Source: Clostridiales bacterium (GTDB lineage Bacteria > Bacillota > Clostridia > Saccharofermentanales > Saccharofermentanaceae). Taken from it: a stretch of 64,000 nt of DNA. The DNA lies in the NCBI GenBank assembly GCA_017962145.1, contig JAGCVX010000005.1, forward strand, positions 1-64,000. Reading direction: 5' to 3'. The notes under the pieces are model-generated. The model saw only the letters and a list, made by a program, of their open reading frames with translations. It ran no database searches and was not told the DNA's origin. The position numbers and the translations under genes were made by a program. Positions 49,525 through 56,828 of this stretch are shown here, one piece after another (positions within the stretch are counted from its first letter, which is position 1; each line of letters opens with the position of its first letter).

Positions 49525-49968
49525 TTACGGAGTCAGGCTGATATAATCACCGGAAACATAATATCCGTCTTCGAGTTTAAACCAGTTATTGCTTGTCTTG
49601 GCCACTACGATAACCTGCATGCCGGCTGTAAGAGTTCCGACCTGCTCGTACTTCGTATCCGGACCTTTGCGGATCTTTAAATATCCGCTGGTGATCTTAA
49701 CATACATGACCTTTGCTTCAAACTCTTCTTCTGTCCAGGTGATCGGCTCGTCGTTCGGAGCGATGGACACGCCGTAATCCATAAGAGTTGTTGTCGCAGA
49801 TGTATCGGGAATAGAAACGATCGGAGTTGTTTCCGCCGAAGAATCGGAGGTCTCAGCCGTCGTTTCTTTAGATTTGCTCTTTTTCTTACCGCAAGCGGCA
49901 CAAGATATTACCATGGCAACTGCCAATGTCAAAACCAATGTTTTCTTTAAAACAGAAGATCGTTTCAT
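49525..49968 (-). CDS. SH3b-domain lipoprotein
   Basis: A 147-residue secreted lipoprotein. The signal peptide MKRSSVLKKTLVLTLAVAM ends at the lipobox ISCAAC (lipidated Cys about residue 26). A Ser/Thr/Glu-rich linker follows, then a bacterial SH3 domain (about residues 88-145: VKITSGYLKIRKGPDTKYE, YYVSGDYISL), a fold that usually binds peptidoglycan. No enzyme domain. AGGAG lies nine bases before the ATG. It is probably monocistronic and is followed by the tRNA unit's promoter. Confidence 0.88.
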   Translation of the reverse strand: MKRSSVLKKTLVLTLAVAMVISCAACGKKKSKSKETTAETSDSSAETTPIVSIPDTSATTTLMDYGVSIAPNDEPITWTEEEFEAKVMYVKITSGYLKIRKGPDTKYEQVGTLTAGMQVIVVAKTSNNWFKLEDGYYVSGDYISLTP

Positions 49969-50062
49969 AAAACACTCTCCTTTGTTGCACTATACATTTC
50001 CACTCTAATTTAATAGTACAACATTCTTTGCGGATTATTGCAATTGTTTTTTTGCAATTGTT

Positions 50063-50656
50063 TTACGTTTCTACGGCAGAATTAAGGAGTACATACATCT
50101 CGTGATCCTGATAGGTTCCGTCGATTTCCATGTATTTGATGTTGTATCCCATCTTCTCAAAACCACACCCCACCGCGCAATTCACCGATCTCGTGTTGGC
50201 AGGAAGGATGTCTGCCTGGATACGGTGAAGTCTGTAATACTTGAACATGAACTCCGTTCCTGCGCGAAGGCACTCGGACATATACCCGTTTCCCTGCTCG
50301 GCTTCATCGATGTGATAACCGACATAGCAGGAATTCATGCAGCCACCGATGATCGCATAAAAGGAGATTCGTCCGATGATCCTTCCGGGATCGTCGATCT
50401 TACTGATCCACAGCCCGACCAGACTGTTGTTTTTGTACTGGTTCAGGTCCGAGCGCAGATAACTCTTCTGCTCTTTTACGGTATAGTATCTGTCGGAATG
50501 AGTCTGCTGGAATGGTTTGTGAAATGCTCTGTTTCGGACCAGGTACGAGGTGACCTCCGCTCCTGCACACGGCTTATATACACTCAGCAGCAGACGCTTT
50601 GTCTGTAACGTAAGAACTGCACCTTTTAAAGGCGTGACGATTTCATATAATGACAT
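50063..50656 (-). CDS. GNAT N-acetyltransferase (RimJ/RimL type)
   Basis: Acetyl-CoA-dependent acetyltransferase of 197 residues. The GNAT elements are LTLQTKRLLLSVYKP, IGRISFYAIIGGCMNSCYVGYHI, the pyrophosphate-binding EQGNGYMSECLRAG and ILPANTRSVNCAVGCGFEK, the standard pattern of the ribosomal-protein alanine acetyltransferase subgroup. It acts in the cytosol on an unknown amino group. GGAG lies eight bases before the ATG. It follows the cohesin-like gene by 12 bases, so it is probably the last gene of that operon. Confidence 0.93.
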   Translation of the reverse strand: MSLYEIVTPLKGAVLTLQTKRLLLSVYKPCAGAEVTSYLVRNRAFHKPFQQTHSDRYYTVKEQKSYLRSDLNQYKNNSLVGLWISKIDDPGRIIGRISFYAIIGGCMNSCYVGYHIDEAEQGNGYMSECLRAGTEFMFKYYRLHRIQADILPANTRSVNCAVGCGFEKMGYNIKYMEIDGTYQDHEMYVLLNSAVET

Positions 50657-50668
50657 GTCCTTCTCCCC

Positions 50669-52417
50669 TCATTTCGGCTCTTCGTCAATGTCGTCGTTCT
50701 TTTCTTTCTGCTCCGGGAATTCCGGGAAATCCAGGATCAGATCTTTTTTCTCAGGTTCTTCATGTTTCTTTACCGGTTCGGGCTTTACCGGTGCTTGCGG
50801 CTCGTCTCCGAACTGATAGTAAAAATCTTTATGGTTGTCCGCTTCTTCTGCTTCCGGTTCCGGATCTTCGGAAGCGTCTTCCTCTGTCTGTTCTTCGCTT
50901 TCTTCCTGTTCTTCTTCCGCTTCTTCAGCTTCCTCTGCTTCAAACATCTCGTTGAGCATCTGGTTCTTCTCGTAGCGGCGGATCACCAGAAGTACGATGA
51001 TCACGATAAAAAGGATTGCCGAAAGCACGGCCAGTGCGATCGTTGCCGACTTATACACGTGACTTACGCCGGTCGATGCAGAAGCTACCGCGGTCACGAC
51101 AGGAACAGATGTCGCTGTCGGAACCGGTGTCGGCGTATCCGGTACCGGTGTCGGTTCTTCGGTGATTTCCGGTGTAGGTTCTGCGATCAGGGCATCCAGA
51201 GATCCTTTGTAGGGCATCACCAGACCGGTTCCTTCATCTAAATAGTATAAACCTTCATGGCCGTCTGAGGAAAGCATGTAAACCAAAAGAGGCTGCTGCG
51301 CATCCAGTGCATTTCGATAGGCCTCGGCTTCGATATCATCTTTCACATAGGTGGAAAGCGCGTATCCCTGCGGGCAGGAAAAGTTCTTCGGGAAAGGAAT
51401 GAACATGTAAGACGCAGAAGATGTTTCATAGGAATAGCACGGCTTTACCGACTGACTCTCCAGATCGTAAACGTAAAGATGGTTTCCGTTATCCGACAAA
51501 AGCCACATCAGAAGCGTGCCATCCGGGCCGACCAGACAGGGTACGGCACTTCCGCTGTAAGTCGTTTCCGACCAGGTGAATCCGGAAGGGATATTGGAAA
51601 GCGTGCCCTTATCAAGGATCGTGTATGTCGAGCCGTTGCTCTGGATCAGCGGATACGGCATCGGTGTCGGCGTCGGCGTGCCACGGGTCACTACGATCTT
51701 ATATGTCTTTGTGTCACCGTTTTCCGCAGTGACAGTGATCTTCACCGTGTTCTCACCGGGCTGAAGATTATTCTGCACGCCATTGAGCGAGACCTTGGCC
51801 TTCGAATCTTCAGCAGTCGCGGTAACCGCGATGGAAGTCGCTGAATCGTTGACTGTAGCAGTATAGTTCAGTGTATCCTTCGAAAATGCCGGAGACAGGG
51901 TTCCCGGGGATACGGAAAGGGCACTTAAGTTACAGTTGTCGGAAAGCTGGACCGGTGCGCCGACATTTACATTTGCCGAAGCGCCTGTGCTGTAGCTGAC
52001 AAGACCGTCGAGGCTGGAAACTTCCAGGCTTACCGAAACAACGCTCGAACCTTCTTTCAGGCATTTGGCGTCGATCACGACGATCGTCGAATCCGAAACA
52101 ATGTTGCAGTTATAATCCAAAAATGTATTCGCGCCTTTTGAAAAGTTCGAGGAAGCATAGTTGCCGGCGCGGATATCTGTGATCTCGAGATAACTGCTGT
52201 CTACGCTGACGCTTCCGTTAAATCCGCCATACGGACCTTCCCCGCTCACCTTTACGGATAAGCTTATGGTCTTTCCGACTTCTGCTTTTCCGCTCATCAT
52301 GAGAACCGTGGTCACATCTTCTGCCTGATCTGCTGCCATCGCAGGAAACATCGCCGAAGTCAGCATCACCACAGCCGCGGTTAGGATTCCTATTCCTTTT
52401 CGAAATGCACTTTTCAT
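50669..52417 (-). CDS. Membrane-anchored cohesin-like/cadherin-like surface protein
   Basis: Surface protein of about 582 residues. After the signal peptide (AAVVMLTSAMFPAMAAD) residues 35-152 resemble a cohesin domain (VGKTISLSVKVSGEG, GGFNGSVSVDSSYLEITDI). Residues 162-245 are a cadherin-like beta-sandwich (LSALSVSPGTLSPAFSKDT, NTVKITVTAENGDTKTYKI). Then an unassigned domain (255-410), a Pro/Thr linker, a membrane helix at about 456-479 and a highly acidic cytoplasmic tail. The ATG at 52417 follows GGAG by nine bases. It lies 15 bases after the dockerin gene, so both are coexpressed. A receptor for the dockerin enzyme is the natural inference. Confidence 0.8.
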   Translation of the reverse strand: MKSAFRKGIGILTAAVVMLTSAMFPAMAADQAEDVTTVLMMSGKAEVGKTISLSVKVSGEGPYGGFNGSVSVDSSYLEITDIRAGNYASSNFSKGANTFLDYNCNIVSDSTIVVIDAKCLKEGSSVVSVSLEVSSLDGLVSYSTGASANVNVGAPVQLSDNCNLSALSVSPGTLSPAFSKDTLNYTATVNDSATSIAVTATAEDSKAKVSLNGVQNNLQPGENTVKITVTAENGDTKTYKIVVTRGTPTPTPMPYPLIQSNGSTYTILDKGTLSNIPSGFTWSETTYSGSAVPCLVGPDGTLLMWLLSDNGNHLYVYDLESQSVKPCYSYETSSASYMFIPFPKNFSCPQGYALSTYVKDDIEAEAYRNALDAQQPLLVYMLSSDGHEGLYYLDEGTGLVMPYKGSLDALIAEPTPEITEEPTPVPDTPTPVPTATSVPVVTAVASASTGVSHVYKSATIALAVLSAILFIVIIVLLVIRRYEKNQMLNEMFEAEEAEEAEEEQEESEEQTEEDASEDPEPEAEEADNHKDFYYQFGDEPQAPVKPEPVKKHEEPEKKDLILDFPEFPEQKEKNDDIDEEPK

Positions 52418-52432
52418 CTTAGCCATCTCCTT

Positions 52433-54499
52433 TTATTGAACAATCGGTGCGGTCTGCAGGATATGTCTTACGATCACTGTCAGATCCGCCGAATTTACTT
52501 TTCCGTCTTTATTGGCATCCGAAGCCATCGTACCGGAAGCGGACAAAGATCCGTCCCCAAGGATGTAGTGGGTGATCAGGGTCAGGTCCGCGGAACTGAT
52601 ATTTCCATCTCCGTTACTGTCGCCTCGGATAAACAAAGTACCTGTATATACGGAAGCACCGGCTCCGTCGAGAACGATGAACATATCACCGGTCGCCACT
52701 TTAGACGCCGGGTCTTTTGCCGCACCGTTCATATTCACATAAGAAAGAGTATACCCCTCATTCATCAAGAACATAGAAAGAAGCTGTTCTACTGTCGTAT
52801 CCGGAGCGATACCGCTATAGTATGTTCCCGTTGCTACAAGAGGTACAGTAAAGTAATTCACAGGTGATTCGAGATCTCGTGCAACATTGATCACGTAATT
52901 TCTCGTCGATCCGTTCTGCGCCGTAACGACGATCGTGATCTGATTCACGCCGTCTCCGAGCGAGACAGCGCCTGCACCGCTGACAGATGCTTTCGAAGAA
53001 ACAGTCTGCGCCAGTACATTTACACTGGTACATGTCGGCGGAACGACAAGCGAATACTGCGTATCGGAAAGAGCATCGAACTCAGGTGTCAGGACATAGC
53101 CTTCTACCGAAAGCTGGGACAGGCAGTTATTCGGGTTTCCGCTTTGCTTCGGAAGCGAACACGGAGTATCCGGCATATTCTGATAAACAGGGATCGTAAA
53201 GACGATCTCCGTATCAAGGATTCCGGCACGGGAATAGGCCGTAAACATCTTCTTCGACTCACCGGCCGCGCCCTGAATATTCGTCATATACTGGTGTTTG
53301 CCATACTGGCTCGAAGTCTTGGGATTGACGTTGAAACGCATCAGATAGATCGAGTTCTGTCCGATGGCGATATACTGGCTGGCAATAAAGATACTGCCTC
53401 CGCAGATCGCGCGGTACGGGGTCGTCCAGGGAATCAGGATCGAGCTGTTCAAGTTCCCGTCCGATGTACCGTTCTTGGCAAAAGTAAGACCTTTGGCGAT
53501 CGGATCCGCAGATGAATATGCGCCGATATTAAAGTAGTTGTAGTAACCGGCAAGAGAACCGTTGTTTCCACTTGTGGAACCACTTCCCATACTGCCTACT
53601 TCCTGCAGGCACTTGGAAGCAAGGAAAACAGGATTGGCACCGGAAAGCTCCGCCGCACGCACAAAAGTCTGCGCATAGGTCACCTGTTCCGCCTTCATGT
53701 TCGTGATCGTGCCGGACTGCATGAATGTTCCGTTCAAAATGCACTGTACCGATTCGATCGGCTGCGATTCCGGGATATATGAAAGATCGGCAAACTGGAA
53801 TACATACTGTTCGTTAAGCATATTACGTGGATCGAGATAATACTCGACAACACTTCTGGCTGCATTGACCCACGTCTGACCGTCGTAAACGATATAAGTA
53901 TCCGTTCTCCAGTCATAGGCAAACGATTCCGTTGATTTCCAGGCATCGTTCGCCGAATTCGTGATCAGGCTGACACCAACCTGAGACTCAAGATTAACGG
54001 TCTCCTGGAAATCACGATTAACATTCAGCGCGCGGAAATGCCAGGCAGGATGTGCCTGGTGCATGACACGAAGATAAGATTTATAGCTTTCAGGGAAAGA
54101 AGCGATTTCTTTTTCAAATTCATCGTCCGACGGATCGCCGGAATCCTTACTTAAGAAAGAATCTACGATATAGCCCGTCTTTGACGAACCCGAAATGCTA
54201 AAAACGATCTTACACCAGAGAGTCTGACCGGAAGGATCCGATGTCAGCTCGACCACCTCACAGGCGGTCACTCTGGTGCCTCGATCGAGTGTTGCGATAA
54301 TATTCGTATTTACTGTGCCTGCTGCGTCACGGATATTTGCCTGACCCACACACACAGTAGCATTACCGGCTGCATCGTCCAAGTCCGCCCGCACAAGTGC
54401 TTCAGCGGGACAATTGAACAGGATGTAGCCGATAATGACTATCACAGCCAAAAGCCGCGTTGTGTGATTGTTATAACTGTACTTCCACAGTTTGTCCAT
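52433..54499 (-). CDS. Secreted glucosaminidase with SH3, cadherin-like and dockerin domains
   Basis: Peptidoglycan hydrolase of 688 residues. A signal/anchor helix (16-34), an SH3b-like domain (45-118), a LytG-type endo-beta-N-acetylglucosaminidase domain (about 135-440, likely catalytic Glu300 in LASKCLQEVGSMGS), a cadherin-like sandwich (455-542) and a type I dockerin at 626-683 with two calcium loops, DSNGDGNISSADLTLI and DANKDGKVNSADLTVI. The ribosome site AGG and start lie inside the arm of a 13-pair hairpin. Placed before the cohesin-like gene. It may remodel wall while docked on its neighbour. Confidence 0.9.
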   Translation of the reverse strand: MDKLWKYSYNNHTTRLLAVIVIIGYILFNCPAEALVRADLDDAAGNATVCVGQANIRDAAGTVNTNIIATLDRGTRVTACEVVELTSDPSGQTLWCKIVFSISGSSKTGYIVDSFLSKDSGDPSDDEFEKEIASFPESYKSYLRVMHQAHPAWHFRALNVNRDFQETVNLESQVGVSLITNSANDAWKSTESFAYDWRTDTYIVYDGQTWVNAARSVVEYYLDPRNMLNEQYVFQFADLSYIPESQPIESVQCILNGTFMQSGTITNMKAEQVTYAQTFVRAAELSGANPVFLASKCLQEVGSMGSGSTSGNNGSLAGYYNYFNIGAYSSADPIAKGLTFAKNGTSDGNLNSSILIPWTTPYRAICGGSIFIASQYIAIGQNSIYLMRFNVNPKTSSQYGKHQYMTNIQGAAGESKKMFTAYSRAGILDTEIVFTIPVYQNMPDTPCSLPKQSGNPNNCLSQLSVEGYVLTPEFDALSDTQYSLVVPPTCTSVNVLAQTVSSKASVSGAGAVSLGDGVNQITIVVTAQNGSTRNYVINVARDLESPVNYFTVPLVATGTYYSGIAPDTTVEQLLSMFLMNEGYTLSYVNMNGAAKDPASKVATGDMFIVLDGAGASVYTGTLFIRGDSNGDGNISSADLTLITHYILGDGSLSASGTMASDANKDGKVNSADLTVIVRHILQTAPIVQ

Positions 54500-54581: not shown

Positions 54582-56729
54582 TTAGATGTCGCCACGTACG
54601 ATACCGTACTGGTTGCAGATCGCCTGGAATTCAGCACATCCGGCGAATGCCTTCATGACGTCTTCTCTGCTGGTGCCCTTGATGAGCATCTGGAGCCAGT
54701 AGTTGAATCCGTCCGCTTCAGGAGTTCTGCCCATGAATGTTGTATAAAGTCTTCTCAGGAATTCTTCGTTCGAAGCATTCAGATTCTGGAACTCAGGCAG
54801 TGTGAAGAACAGACTTGCAGCCTGATAACCTGTCGCATCCGCATTTGTCAGTGCCAGAGACCAGTAAGCGAGACCATCTGCTTCCGGCTCTCTTCCAAGG
54901 CAGCAGGTATAAAGACGTGTTGCAAACTTTGTCGCATTCTTCGACGGAACAGTTGCTTTGTGGTAGATCGCACCGGACTTAACGCCATAAGTTGCGCAGA
55001 TGTTGCACCACTCAACAGACTCGATGAAATCATTTACCAGATCGATCTTCGGAGATCCGGATGCCAGACGGCCCAGCCAGTAAGCCTTACCATCTGCTTC
55101 GGACTCACGGCCGAAGAATGTCTGATACAGTACTTCTACGAACTGATCGTCCGGGAGGTTTCTGTTCATGAACTCAGGAGCATCCAGCAGGAAGAATCTT
55201 GCACAGTCCGCACCGGTAAAGCCCTTGTTCACTACCTGATCACACCAGTACGCTTTTCCATCCTGCTCAGACGGACGTCCGAGTGCAACCGTATAAAGAC
55301 GCTCAACAAACTCTTCAAAGGTTACTTCCTTCTCCGGTTCTTTGCCCGGTTCAGGCTGCGGTTCCGGAACGATCGGATTTGTTGCAGGCTGGATCAGTTT
55401 GTTCTCAACCTTGCTGAAAGTAGTGGAAGATCTAGATGAAGTTTTACCTGTACCATAGTAGAGCCAGCCATTATCTACATCAAAATGATAAATCACACTA
55501 TGAATAGAAACATCTACACCAACAAGCTCTTCTGCTGTATACATCGTCTCAACAGGGTAATCTGCATTGGCCAGATCGATATACATAATGCAATCATTTC
55601 CATTAAAGATCAAATAGTGTTCATATACCTCAGAGTGGCTGTAAGTAGAATTCAAGTAGTTATTCGAAAAAACACCCTTATCGCCCAGATTTGCGATGAC
55701 GATTTCCGGGCCGTTTTCCAAACTTGCCGTATGCATAACATCTGTTGTTCTGGAATTTGCGTTCCCCTTACAGTAGTACCATCCGCCATTATACGCAGTG
55801 ATCATGCTATCGATACCGTGCCAGAGAGCATTATCAAATCTGGTAGCAGTAACAAAACCAGCCGGAAGCTGAAAAGGCTCCGAATGTTTCTTGGCAGTCA
55901 ATGTAGCATCATTAACAAGGAAGTAGTCATGCTCAACTCTTCCGAGAATATCTTCTTCCGCATCATCTTCAGCTACATCAATATAATAGTAATCATTGCC
56001 GATTTTAACGAGCGTCCAAACATCAAATCTATGTTCATCCGATACAGAATAGATTTCAAAACCTGCCGCACGCATAAGATAAATGTAAGCAGGAACGATA
56101 CCTCTTTCTGTCGCACAACGATCGATCAGAGCACCATAGATTAAATCTCTGTAATCACCTTCATAACCATGTTCTACATAGTTGGCAAGCCAGTCATGCA
56201 GAACAAGCGCTCTTTCATAATCGGTCATATAAGGCTTAATGTTCGAAAGTGCAAGCTTTGAAACATCATTGATTTTCGCCATGATCGAATCCACTTCCGC
56301 AGTAGAAAATCTATAGTTCACAGAAAGAGTCTTATATACACCATCAATTGCAAAAAGTCCTAAGTTTCCGACAGCAAACAGCTCCGGGTTATTGTCACTG
56401 ATCAGATGGATATCATCGAAGAAACCGTCGGATTCACCATATGGAAGTCCGAATTGAGAGATATCGATCTTCGCATTATGAGCCAACAGGTTTCTTTCAA
56501 TATAATCAGCAATCTGATCATTGATCACCTGATACTTATAAATCAGCTGACCATCCTCGATCGCATACTCGTACCCATGATTCTCATCAGCATCACAGTA
56601 CTCATAGATTTCAGAATCGTCATCCGAGTCAGCTCTTACTTGCTTCGATACCATTCCCGGCATGGAGATGATAAAGGAGAAAGCTAAGCTGATACATAGA
56701 ATGACTGAAAGTAGTTTTGATTTGTGCAT
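54582..56729 (-). CDS. Secreted transglutaminase-like protein with four DUF4214 repeats
   Basis: A 715-residue secreted protein. Signal peptide, then a transglutaminase-like region (about residues 40-300), a beta-rich middle (WYYCKGNANSRTTDV, GWLYYGTGKTS), a Pro/Glu linker and four DUF4214 units of about 50 residues (RLYTVALGR, VLYQTFFGR, RLYTCCLGR, RLYTTFMGR, each with EADGxxYW-type motif). In the catalytic region YGALIDRCATERGIVPAYIYL, the position of the usual nucleophile holds Glu, with a Cys three residues earlier; HRFDVW and IDVAEDD keep the His and Asp. It may be inactive. GGAGG lies seven bases before the ATG at 56729. Confidence 0.82.
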   Translation of the reverse strand: MHKSKLLSVILCISLAFSFIISMPGMVSKQVRADSDDDSEIYEYCDADENHGYEYAIEDGQLIYKYQVINDQIADYIERNLLAHNAKIDISQFGLPYGESDGFFDDIHLISDNNPELFAVGNLGLFAIDGVYKTLSVNYRFSTAEVDSIMAKINDVSKLALSNIKPYMTDYERALVLHDWLANYVEHGYEGDYRDLIYGALIDRCATERGIVPAYIYLMRAAGFEIYSVSDEHRFDVWTLVKIGNDYYYIDVAEDDAEEDILGRVEHDYFLVNDATLTAKKHSEPFQLPAGFVTATRFDNALWHGIDSMITAYNGGWYYCKGNANSRTTDVMHTASLENGPEIVIANLGDKGVFSNNYLNSTYSHSEVYEHYLIFNGNDCIMYIDLANADYPVETMYTAEELVGVDVSIHSVIYHFDVDNGWLYYGTGKTSSRSSTTFSKVENKLIQPATNPIVPEPQPEPGKEPEKEVTFEEFVERLYTVALGRPSEQDGKAYWCDQVVNKGFTGADCARFFLLDAPEFMNRNLPDDQFVEVLYQTFFGRESEADGKAYWLGRLASGSPKIDLVNDFIESVEWCNICATYGVKSGAIYHKATVPSKNATKFATRLYTCCLGREPEADGLAYWSLALTNADATGYQAASLFFTLPEFQNLNASNEEFLRRLYTTFMGRTPEADGFNYWLQMLIKGTSREDVMKAFAGCAEFQAICNQYGIVRGDI

Positions 56730-56828
56730 AATCATTCCTCCATGCAAAATAATGTAAAGATATATTAACACATGGTAAAAAACCATGAAGATTGAATTAT
56801 GGAAATTCACCTTCAGTTCACACGAAAT

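Follow-up and report, generated by a model that had tools for sequence, protein, structure and literature searches.

What is a dockerin doing on an enzyme of the peptidoglycan glucosaminidase kind, beside the gene of a membrane protein that carries a cohesin-like module? The question is raised by two adjoining genes, A1 and A2, in the first 64,000 nucleotides (the window) of contig JAGCVX010000005.1 from a Clostridiales bacterium of the Saccharofermentanaceae (assembly GCA_017962145.1), whose draft genome measures 2.54 Mb and is 85% complete. Cohesin-dockerin pairs have been studied almost only in polysaccharide digestion. No role has been settled for solitary dockerins and cohesins in bacteria that are not cellulolytic (PMC4300822). 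We consider it probable that the two proteins encoded here form a dedicated membrane tether, one socket for one plug, for a peptidoglycan glucosaminidase. The genes are separated by 6 nt, and the two neighbouring open reading frames described in an earlier note, made from the letters of this DNA, are confirmed:

50669..52426, minus strand: A1, encoding P0001, the predicted membrane cohesin receptor, 585 aa (open reading frame call, domain searches)
52433..54499, minus strand: A2, encoding P0002, predicted to be a secreted N-acetylglucosaminidase of the SagB/GH73-like kind, 688 aa, which carries a cadherin-like domain and ends in a dockerin (open reading frame call, Pfam, PDB matches)

The cohesin, the dockerin and the pairing of their genes

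51953..52324, minus strand: cohesin domain of P0001, residues 35-158 (AlphaFold2 model; family profile against the PDB; Pfam Cohesin matches in family members)
52436..52636, minus strand: type I dockerin of P0002, residues 622-688, with calcium loops DSNGDGNISSAD (627-638) and DANKDGKVNSAD (661-672) (Pfam, alignment)

The earlier note had made the cohesin fold of P0001 residues 35-152 one of the two points on which its proposal turned. The AlphaFold2 model of residues 35-158 does adopt this fold: it superimposes on the Clostridium perfringens cohesin 2vo8 with a Z of 15.2 and a root-mean-square deviation of 2.2 Å over 123 residues, and on the C. cellulolyticum cohesin 1g1k with a Z of 14.2, the predicted local distance difference test score (pLDDT) being above 90 over most of the region. 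For this modelling, the dockerin and the receptor ectodomain were treated as a single chain: the two genes are in frame, and the TAA that separates them was read as Gly. The domain folds obtained were good, and the fusion is a computing device that carries no claim of readthrough. Pfam Cohesin (PF00963) gave no match to the window's own P0001 sequence, which does not exclude the fold, as the Pfam model misses divergent members. It is listed for 21 of 22 family members (best E 1.1e-7, in a scan limited at E 10), and a family profile of the region finds ScaB cohesins in the PDB with an E of 9.2e-7. As modelled, the N-terminal module of P0001 is a cohesin of the jelly-roll fold. Matches of P0001 to influenza haemagglutinin in the PDB were set aside as chance: they have E values of 0.02 or more and cover residues ~239-316, outside the cohesin.

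The two dockerin calcium loops claimed for P0002 are borne out by a Dockerin_1 match at residues 626-681 (E 3.1e-14; 53.3 bits, for a curated cut-off of 22.9), and both loops are kept in the alignment of the family. The cohesin and dockerin genes travel together. In all 23 family loci for which both genes were fetched, the enzyme and cohesin genes are adjacent and co-oriented, with gaps of -14 to 115 nt. The cohesin gene is present in 19 of 23 genus genomes, each with exactly one dockerin, and the four that have no cohesin gene (G100, G102, G106 and G108) are all devoid of a dockerin as well. Every A-type enzyme whose C-terminus is intact bears the dockerin. Two cohesin genes only, A1 and a paralogue, B1, were found in the source genome. 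Within the family the relatives come chiefly from metagenome-assembled genomes (MAGs) of rumen and gut. The arrangement extends further: at about 22 loci outside the family (Lachnospiraceae, Oscillospiraceae and other Clostridia) a dockerin enzyme directly precedes the gene of a cadherin-like membrane protein of the same build, Pfam Cohesin matches 17 of 21 N-termini of these partner proteins, and many of the genomes, Pseudoflavonifractor sp. An44 (L098) among them, contain just one dockerin.

The cohesin-recognition positions of dockerins are 10, 11, 17, 18 and 22, and similarity between the two halves at these positions indicates dual-mode binding (PMC6780208). The halves were compared with each other, against shuffles, in the 16 proteins left after similar ones had been removed. 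Positions 10, 11, 17 and 18 hold the same residue in both halves in 14, 13, 13 and 14 of the 16 (shuffle means 3.6, 2.3, 2.3 and 4.2); positions 13, 14, 20 and 21 are symmetric too, position 22 is weakly so, and half-to-half identity at positions 2 and 4 is near chance. The 10-11 pair as a whole is identical between halves in 13 of 18 non-redundant relatives, for a shuffle mean of 1.06. It reads SA/SA in the window and varies by lineage (SA, AA, VS, SY, AI, NS, TG and others). Recognition positions that vary between lineages and nevertheless match between halves are what one would expect of a dual-mode dockerin that is in use and fitted to a partner of its own.

These observations are consistent with the following scheme. 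P0002 would be exported and its signal peptide removed, and its C-terminal dockerin would bind the N-terminal cohesin of P0001, presumably with calcium. Between the cohesin and the single transmembrane helix lie a cadherin-like domain, a beta domain that is conserved, and a stalk rich in proline, on which the cohesin would stand. Held at the membrane surface, the enzyme would, by homology with SagB and Atl, cut glycan strands in peptidoglycan that is new or belongs to the inner wall. The cytoplasmic tail of P0001 would probably place or regulate the complex through an internal partner; this is the weakest step.

Build of the enzyme and of the putative receptor

From its N-terminus, P0002 consists of a signal-peptide-like segment, an SH3b-like region, the glucosaminidase region, a cadherin-like domain, a small beta domain and the dockerin:

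54383..54499, minus strand: predicted cleavable signal peptide, residues 1-39, ...VRA|D (assigned by eye: in the family, a hydrophobic stretch with small residues after it at -3/-1)
54146..54370, minus strand: SH3b-like N-terminal region, residues 44-118 (related enzymes have an SH3_3 domain in this position; Pfam gives no match in the window protein itself)
53165..54097, minus strand: glucosaminidase catalytic region, residues 135-445 (PDB matches 6fxp, 6fxo, 6u0o and 4pi7)
53600..53602, minus strand: codon of the putative catalytic Glu300 (E in 25/25 orthologues; counterpart in the alignment is the Glu in the staphylococcal ...LLETG... motif)
52877..53122, minus strand: cadherin-like beta sandwich PF12733, residues 460-541 (Pfam E 1.4e-8)
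52640..52867, minus strand: small conserved beta domain directly N-terminal of the dockerin, residues 545-620 (alignment; confident in the AlphaFold2 model)

Residues 135-445 match staphylococcal glucosaminidase structures at about 1e-11 to 2e-13, among them 6fxp (2.4e-13) and 6u0o, the SagB of SagB-SpdC (7.3e-13). The SagB model NCBIfam NF052642 reaches an E of 3.3e-19 on P0002, at 69.2 bits, far under its curated cut-off of 425. By these resemblances P0002 is a SagB/GH73-like N-acetylglucosaminidase, and its peptidoglycan glucosaminidase activity is predicted because of its homology to SagB and Atl. The LytG-type hydrolase of the earlier note is thus upheld as a glucosaminidase by homology; the assignment to LytG specifically is not, the enzyme being nearer to the SagB/Atl type.

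In P0001 a predicted signal peptide precedes the cohesin. The cadherin-like domain comes next, then another conserved domain and the stalk rich in proline; a single transmembrane helix leads to the acidic tail:

51683..51928, minus strand: cadherin-like beta sandwich PF12733, residues 167-248 (Pfam E 1.2e-18)
51191..51661, minus strand: membrane-proximal all-beta domain, residues 256-412 (AlphaFold2 pLDDT 91.5, predicted template-modelling score 0.81)
50981..51046, minus strand: transmembrane helix, residues 461-482, then RR (positive inside)
50672..50980, minus strand: acidic cytoplasmic tail, residues 483-585, with motifs DFYYQFGDE (534-542) and LILDFPEFPEQK (563-574) (motif conservation in the genus)

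The Pfam matches agree with the cadherin-like sandwiches that had been read in both proteins. The membrane-proximal domain, apparently an internal repeat, belongs to no Pfam family and gave no confident match in a fold comparison with the PDB; it is common to A1, to its paralogue B1 and to many partner proteins of other Clostridia.

A single membrane helix and a long acidic tail had also been described, correctly: the tail has 103 residues, 41 of them D or E and 12 K or R. Acidity is an incomplete description, conserved motifs being present besides. Among the genus members, YYQFGDE is found in 18 of 19 and DFPEFP in 17 of 19, and most also have RRPGAKRAGE, an ITVVD-like stretch and a DGE[IV] end; the window's tail is shorter than those of its genus relatives and devoid of RRPGAKRAGE. 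The sister genera have an IPVRL motif instead. Because these motifs are conserved and specific to lineages, they suggest a cytoplasmic partner for which they would be the likely docking site, and they suggest signalling through the tail. Matches of the tail to transmembrane families of Pfam and NCBIfam were rejected as low-complexity.

Pairs devoid of a dockerin, and other explanations

The source genome has a second, paralogous locus, B (contig C27; L032:2136-6357), in which a glucosaminidase devoid of a dockerin is followed by a protein of the cohesin, cadherin-like and membrane build, B1. The B enzyme is present in 23 of 23 genus genomes, the B pairs are adjacent in all 13 loci fetched, and most of the family's genomes yielded relatives of B1. 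In a profile comparison the A1 and B1 cohesins align over only 40 columns with a probability of 29%, each having been placed as a cohesin separately. The tail of B1 is short and basic. Judged by eye, the B enzyme starts with a long unbroken hydrophobic helix that has no obvious cleavage site, while the dockerin enzymes start with signal-peptide-like segments. On the simplest reading, the dockerin plays for a secreted enzyme the part that falls to the membrane helix in the B enzyme. The genus also has glucosaminidases with C-terminal DUF4214 repeats in place of the cadherin-like domain and dockerin, and with no cohesin neighbour:

L147:4698-7445, L148:2718-5585 and L151:3554-6130: DUF4214-repeat glucosaminidases

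They occur in G100, G106 and G094 (the repeats of the last judged by eye). That in one lineage the dockerin gave way to these repeats is made less likely by G094, which has both types of enzyme; for the same reason we count the DUF4214-repeat enzymes as a third class.

Several facts weigh against the dockerin as a tether to P0001. The B pairs keep their partnership with no dockerin, and so do the pairs at three loci outside the family (L111, L113 and L125), whose genomes hold none; a further contact between the partner proteins is likely, and the cohesin-dockerin bond therefore cannot be the sole link. The symmetry of the dockerin halves may stem in part from internal duplication, an origin that, as sole cause, the near-chance positions 2 and 4 seem to argue against. 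In addition, the signal peptides were assigned by eye and the completeness of the source genome is 85%. The proposal of the earlier note that the pair holds an autolysin at the membrane accordingly survives in part: adjacency in 23 of 23 loci, co-occurrence with the sole dockerin and symmetric recognition residues speak for it, and the dockerin-less pairs bar an exclusive role for this link.

Pushed further, the dockerin-less pairs lead to an explanation in which the partners cooperate through another contact, between their cadherin-like domains or between the enzyme and the membrane-proximal domain, as those of paralogue B must, the dockerin adding little or mainly stabilising the enzyme. The membrane-proximal domain shared by A1 and B1 would suit it. 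Yet no A-type enzyme whose C-terminus is intact lacks the dockerin, genomes that have no A1 gene have no dockerin either, and the recognition residues of the dockerin are under symmetric constraint; we regard this explanation as unlikely. The genome's other cohesin, B1, which has relatives across the family, is one on which the dockerin might dock instead of on P0001, as it might on the cohesin of another cell; but the dockerin tracks A1 and not locus B, which is present in the four dockerin-less genus genomes too, and its gene adjoins A1, so that docking elsewhere appears quite improbable. Cohesin-dockerin systems of the rumen and gut usually serve polysaccharide digestion, and it is mainly from such samples that the relatives come, which would favour a remnant or minimal cellulosome whose enzyme attacks foreign polysaccharides (plant fibre, chitin or the walls of competitors). 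The locus is not a cellulosome, because there is no scaffoldin with several cohesins and no set of dockerin enzymes: each protein has one cohesin and the genome one dockerin. Since, moreover, no carbohydrate-binding module was found in domain searches, the enzyme is similar to the wall glucosaminidases of staphylococci and the protein encoded next to it sits in the membrane of the same cell, we give the digestive explanation hardly any chance.

The membrane tether for a wall glucosaminidase, which we prefer, might be one instance of a general system of wall control in gut Clostridia. Single-pass cohesin receptors would reversibly recruit dockerin-tagged peptidoglycan hydrolases with calcium, and their tails would couple cutting to the division or elongation machine, the whole being an analogue of SpdC-SagB made from cellulosome parts. 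We put forward this extension as a speculation, rather doubtful at present. The logic of the tether may also serve cargo other than a glucosaminidase. At a few MAG loci of Bacilli/Tenericutes type (L109:779-4940, L132, L139 and L108) a different dockerin protein adjoins a cadherin-like membrane protein; in L109 it is an M6-type peptidase and in L132 a large cadherin-like repeat protein.

Related systems and surroundings of the locus

Staphylococcus aureus SagB held by SpdC (6u0o; PMC10581084) would be the nearest functional analogue, in which a dedicated membrane protein serves an N-acetylglucosaminidase of the same kind as a scaffold at the membrane. SagB associates with the membrane itself and SpdC is homologous to CAAX proteases, whereas here a cohesin-dockerin link is proposed and the partner has one helix; at this locus, the gene that adjoins A2 encodes a single-helix cohesin protein and not SpdC. 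Because partner and link differ, the pair may be said to work like SagB-SpdC, not to be it. The closest cohesin folds, 2vo8, 2jh2 and 2w1n, are those of C. perfringens glycosidases and exemplify cohesin-dockerin pairing outside cellulosomes; they sit on secreted sugar-cutting enzymes and not, as here, on a putative membrane receptor for a wall hydrolase. OlpA, OlpC and SdbA, the cell-surface anchoring cohesins of cellulosomes, likewise offer a surface-bound cohesin to a dockerin-bearing partner. P0001 contrasts with them in its one transmembrane helix and long cytoplasmic tail, and in a cargo that would be a single peptidoglycan enzyme. Non-cellulosomal cohesin-dockerin pairs being already known, what would be new is their use as a tether for a peptidoglycan hydrolase. 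The literature searched on dockerins with autolysins, glucosaminidases or peptidoglycan hydrolases describes no such pair; an earlier mention may exist. If the reading holds, many lone dockerins and cohesins would gain a housekeeping role, and the way in which anaerobic Clostridia of the gut position an enzyme of the SagB type would become apparent. Pseudoflavonifractor sp. An44, a named isolate among the relatives, makes the idea testable.

The gene upstream of the pair (54582-56810) has four DUF4214 repeats and a weak likeness to a transglutaminase-related lipoprotein family. This lineage seems to have acquired it as an insertion between argJ and the pair, since no relative of it was found in the neighbourhoods fetched from other genomes. 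Downstream lie genes of a GNAT acetyltransferase and an SH3 lipoprotein (49525-50656), which adjoin the pair in many genus members, and beyond them a gene of the DNA topoisomerase subunit B type.

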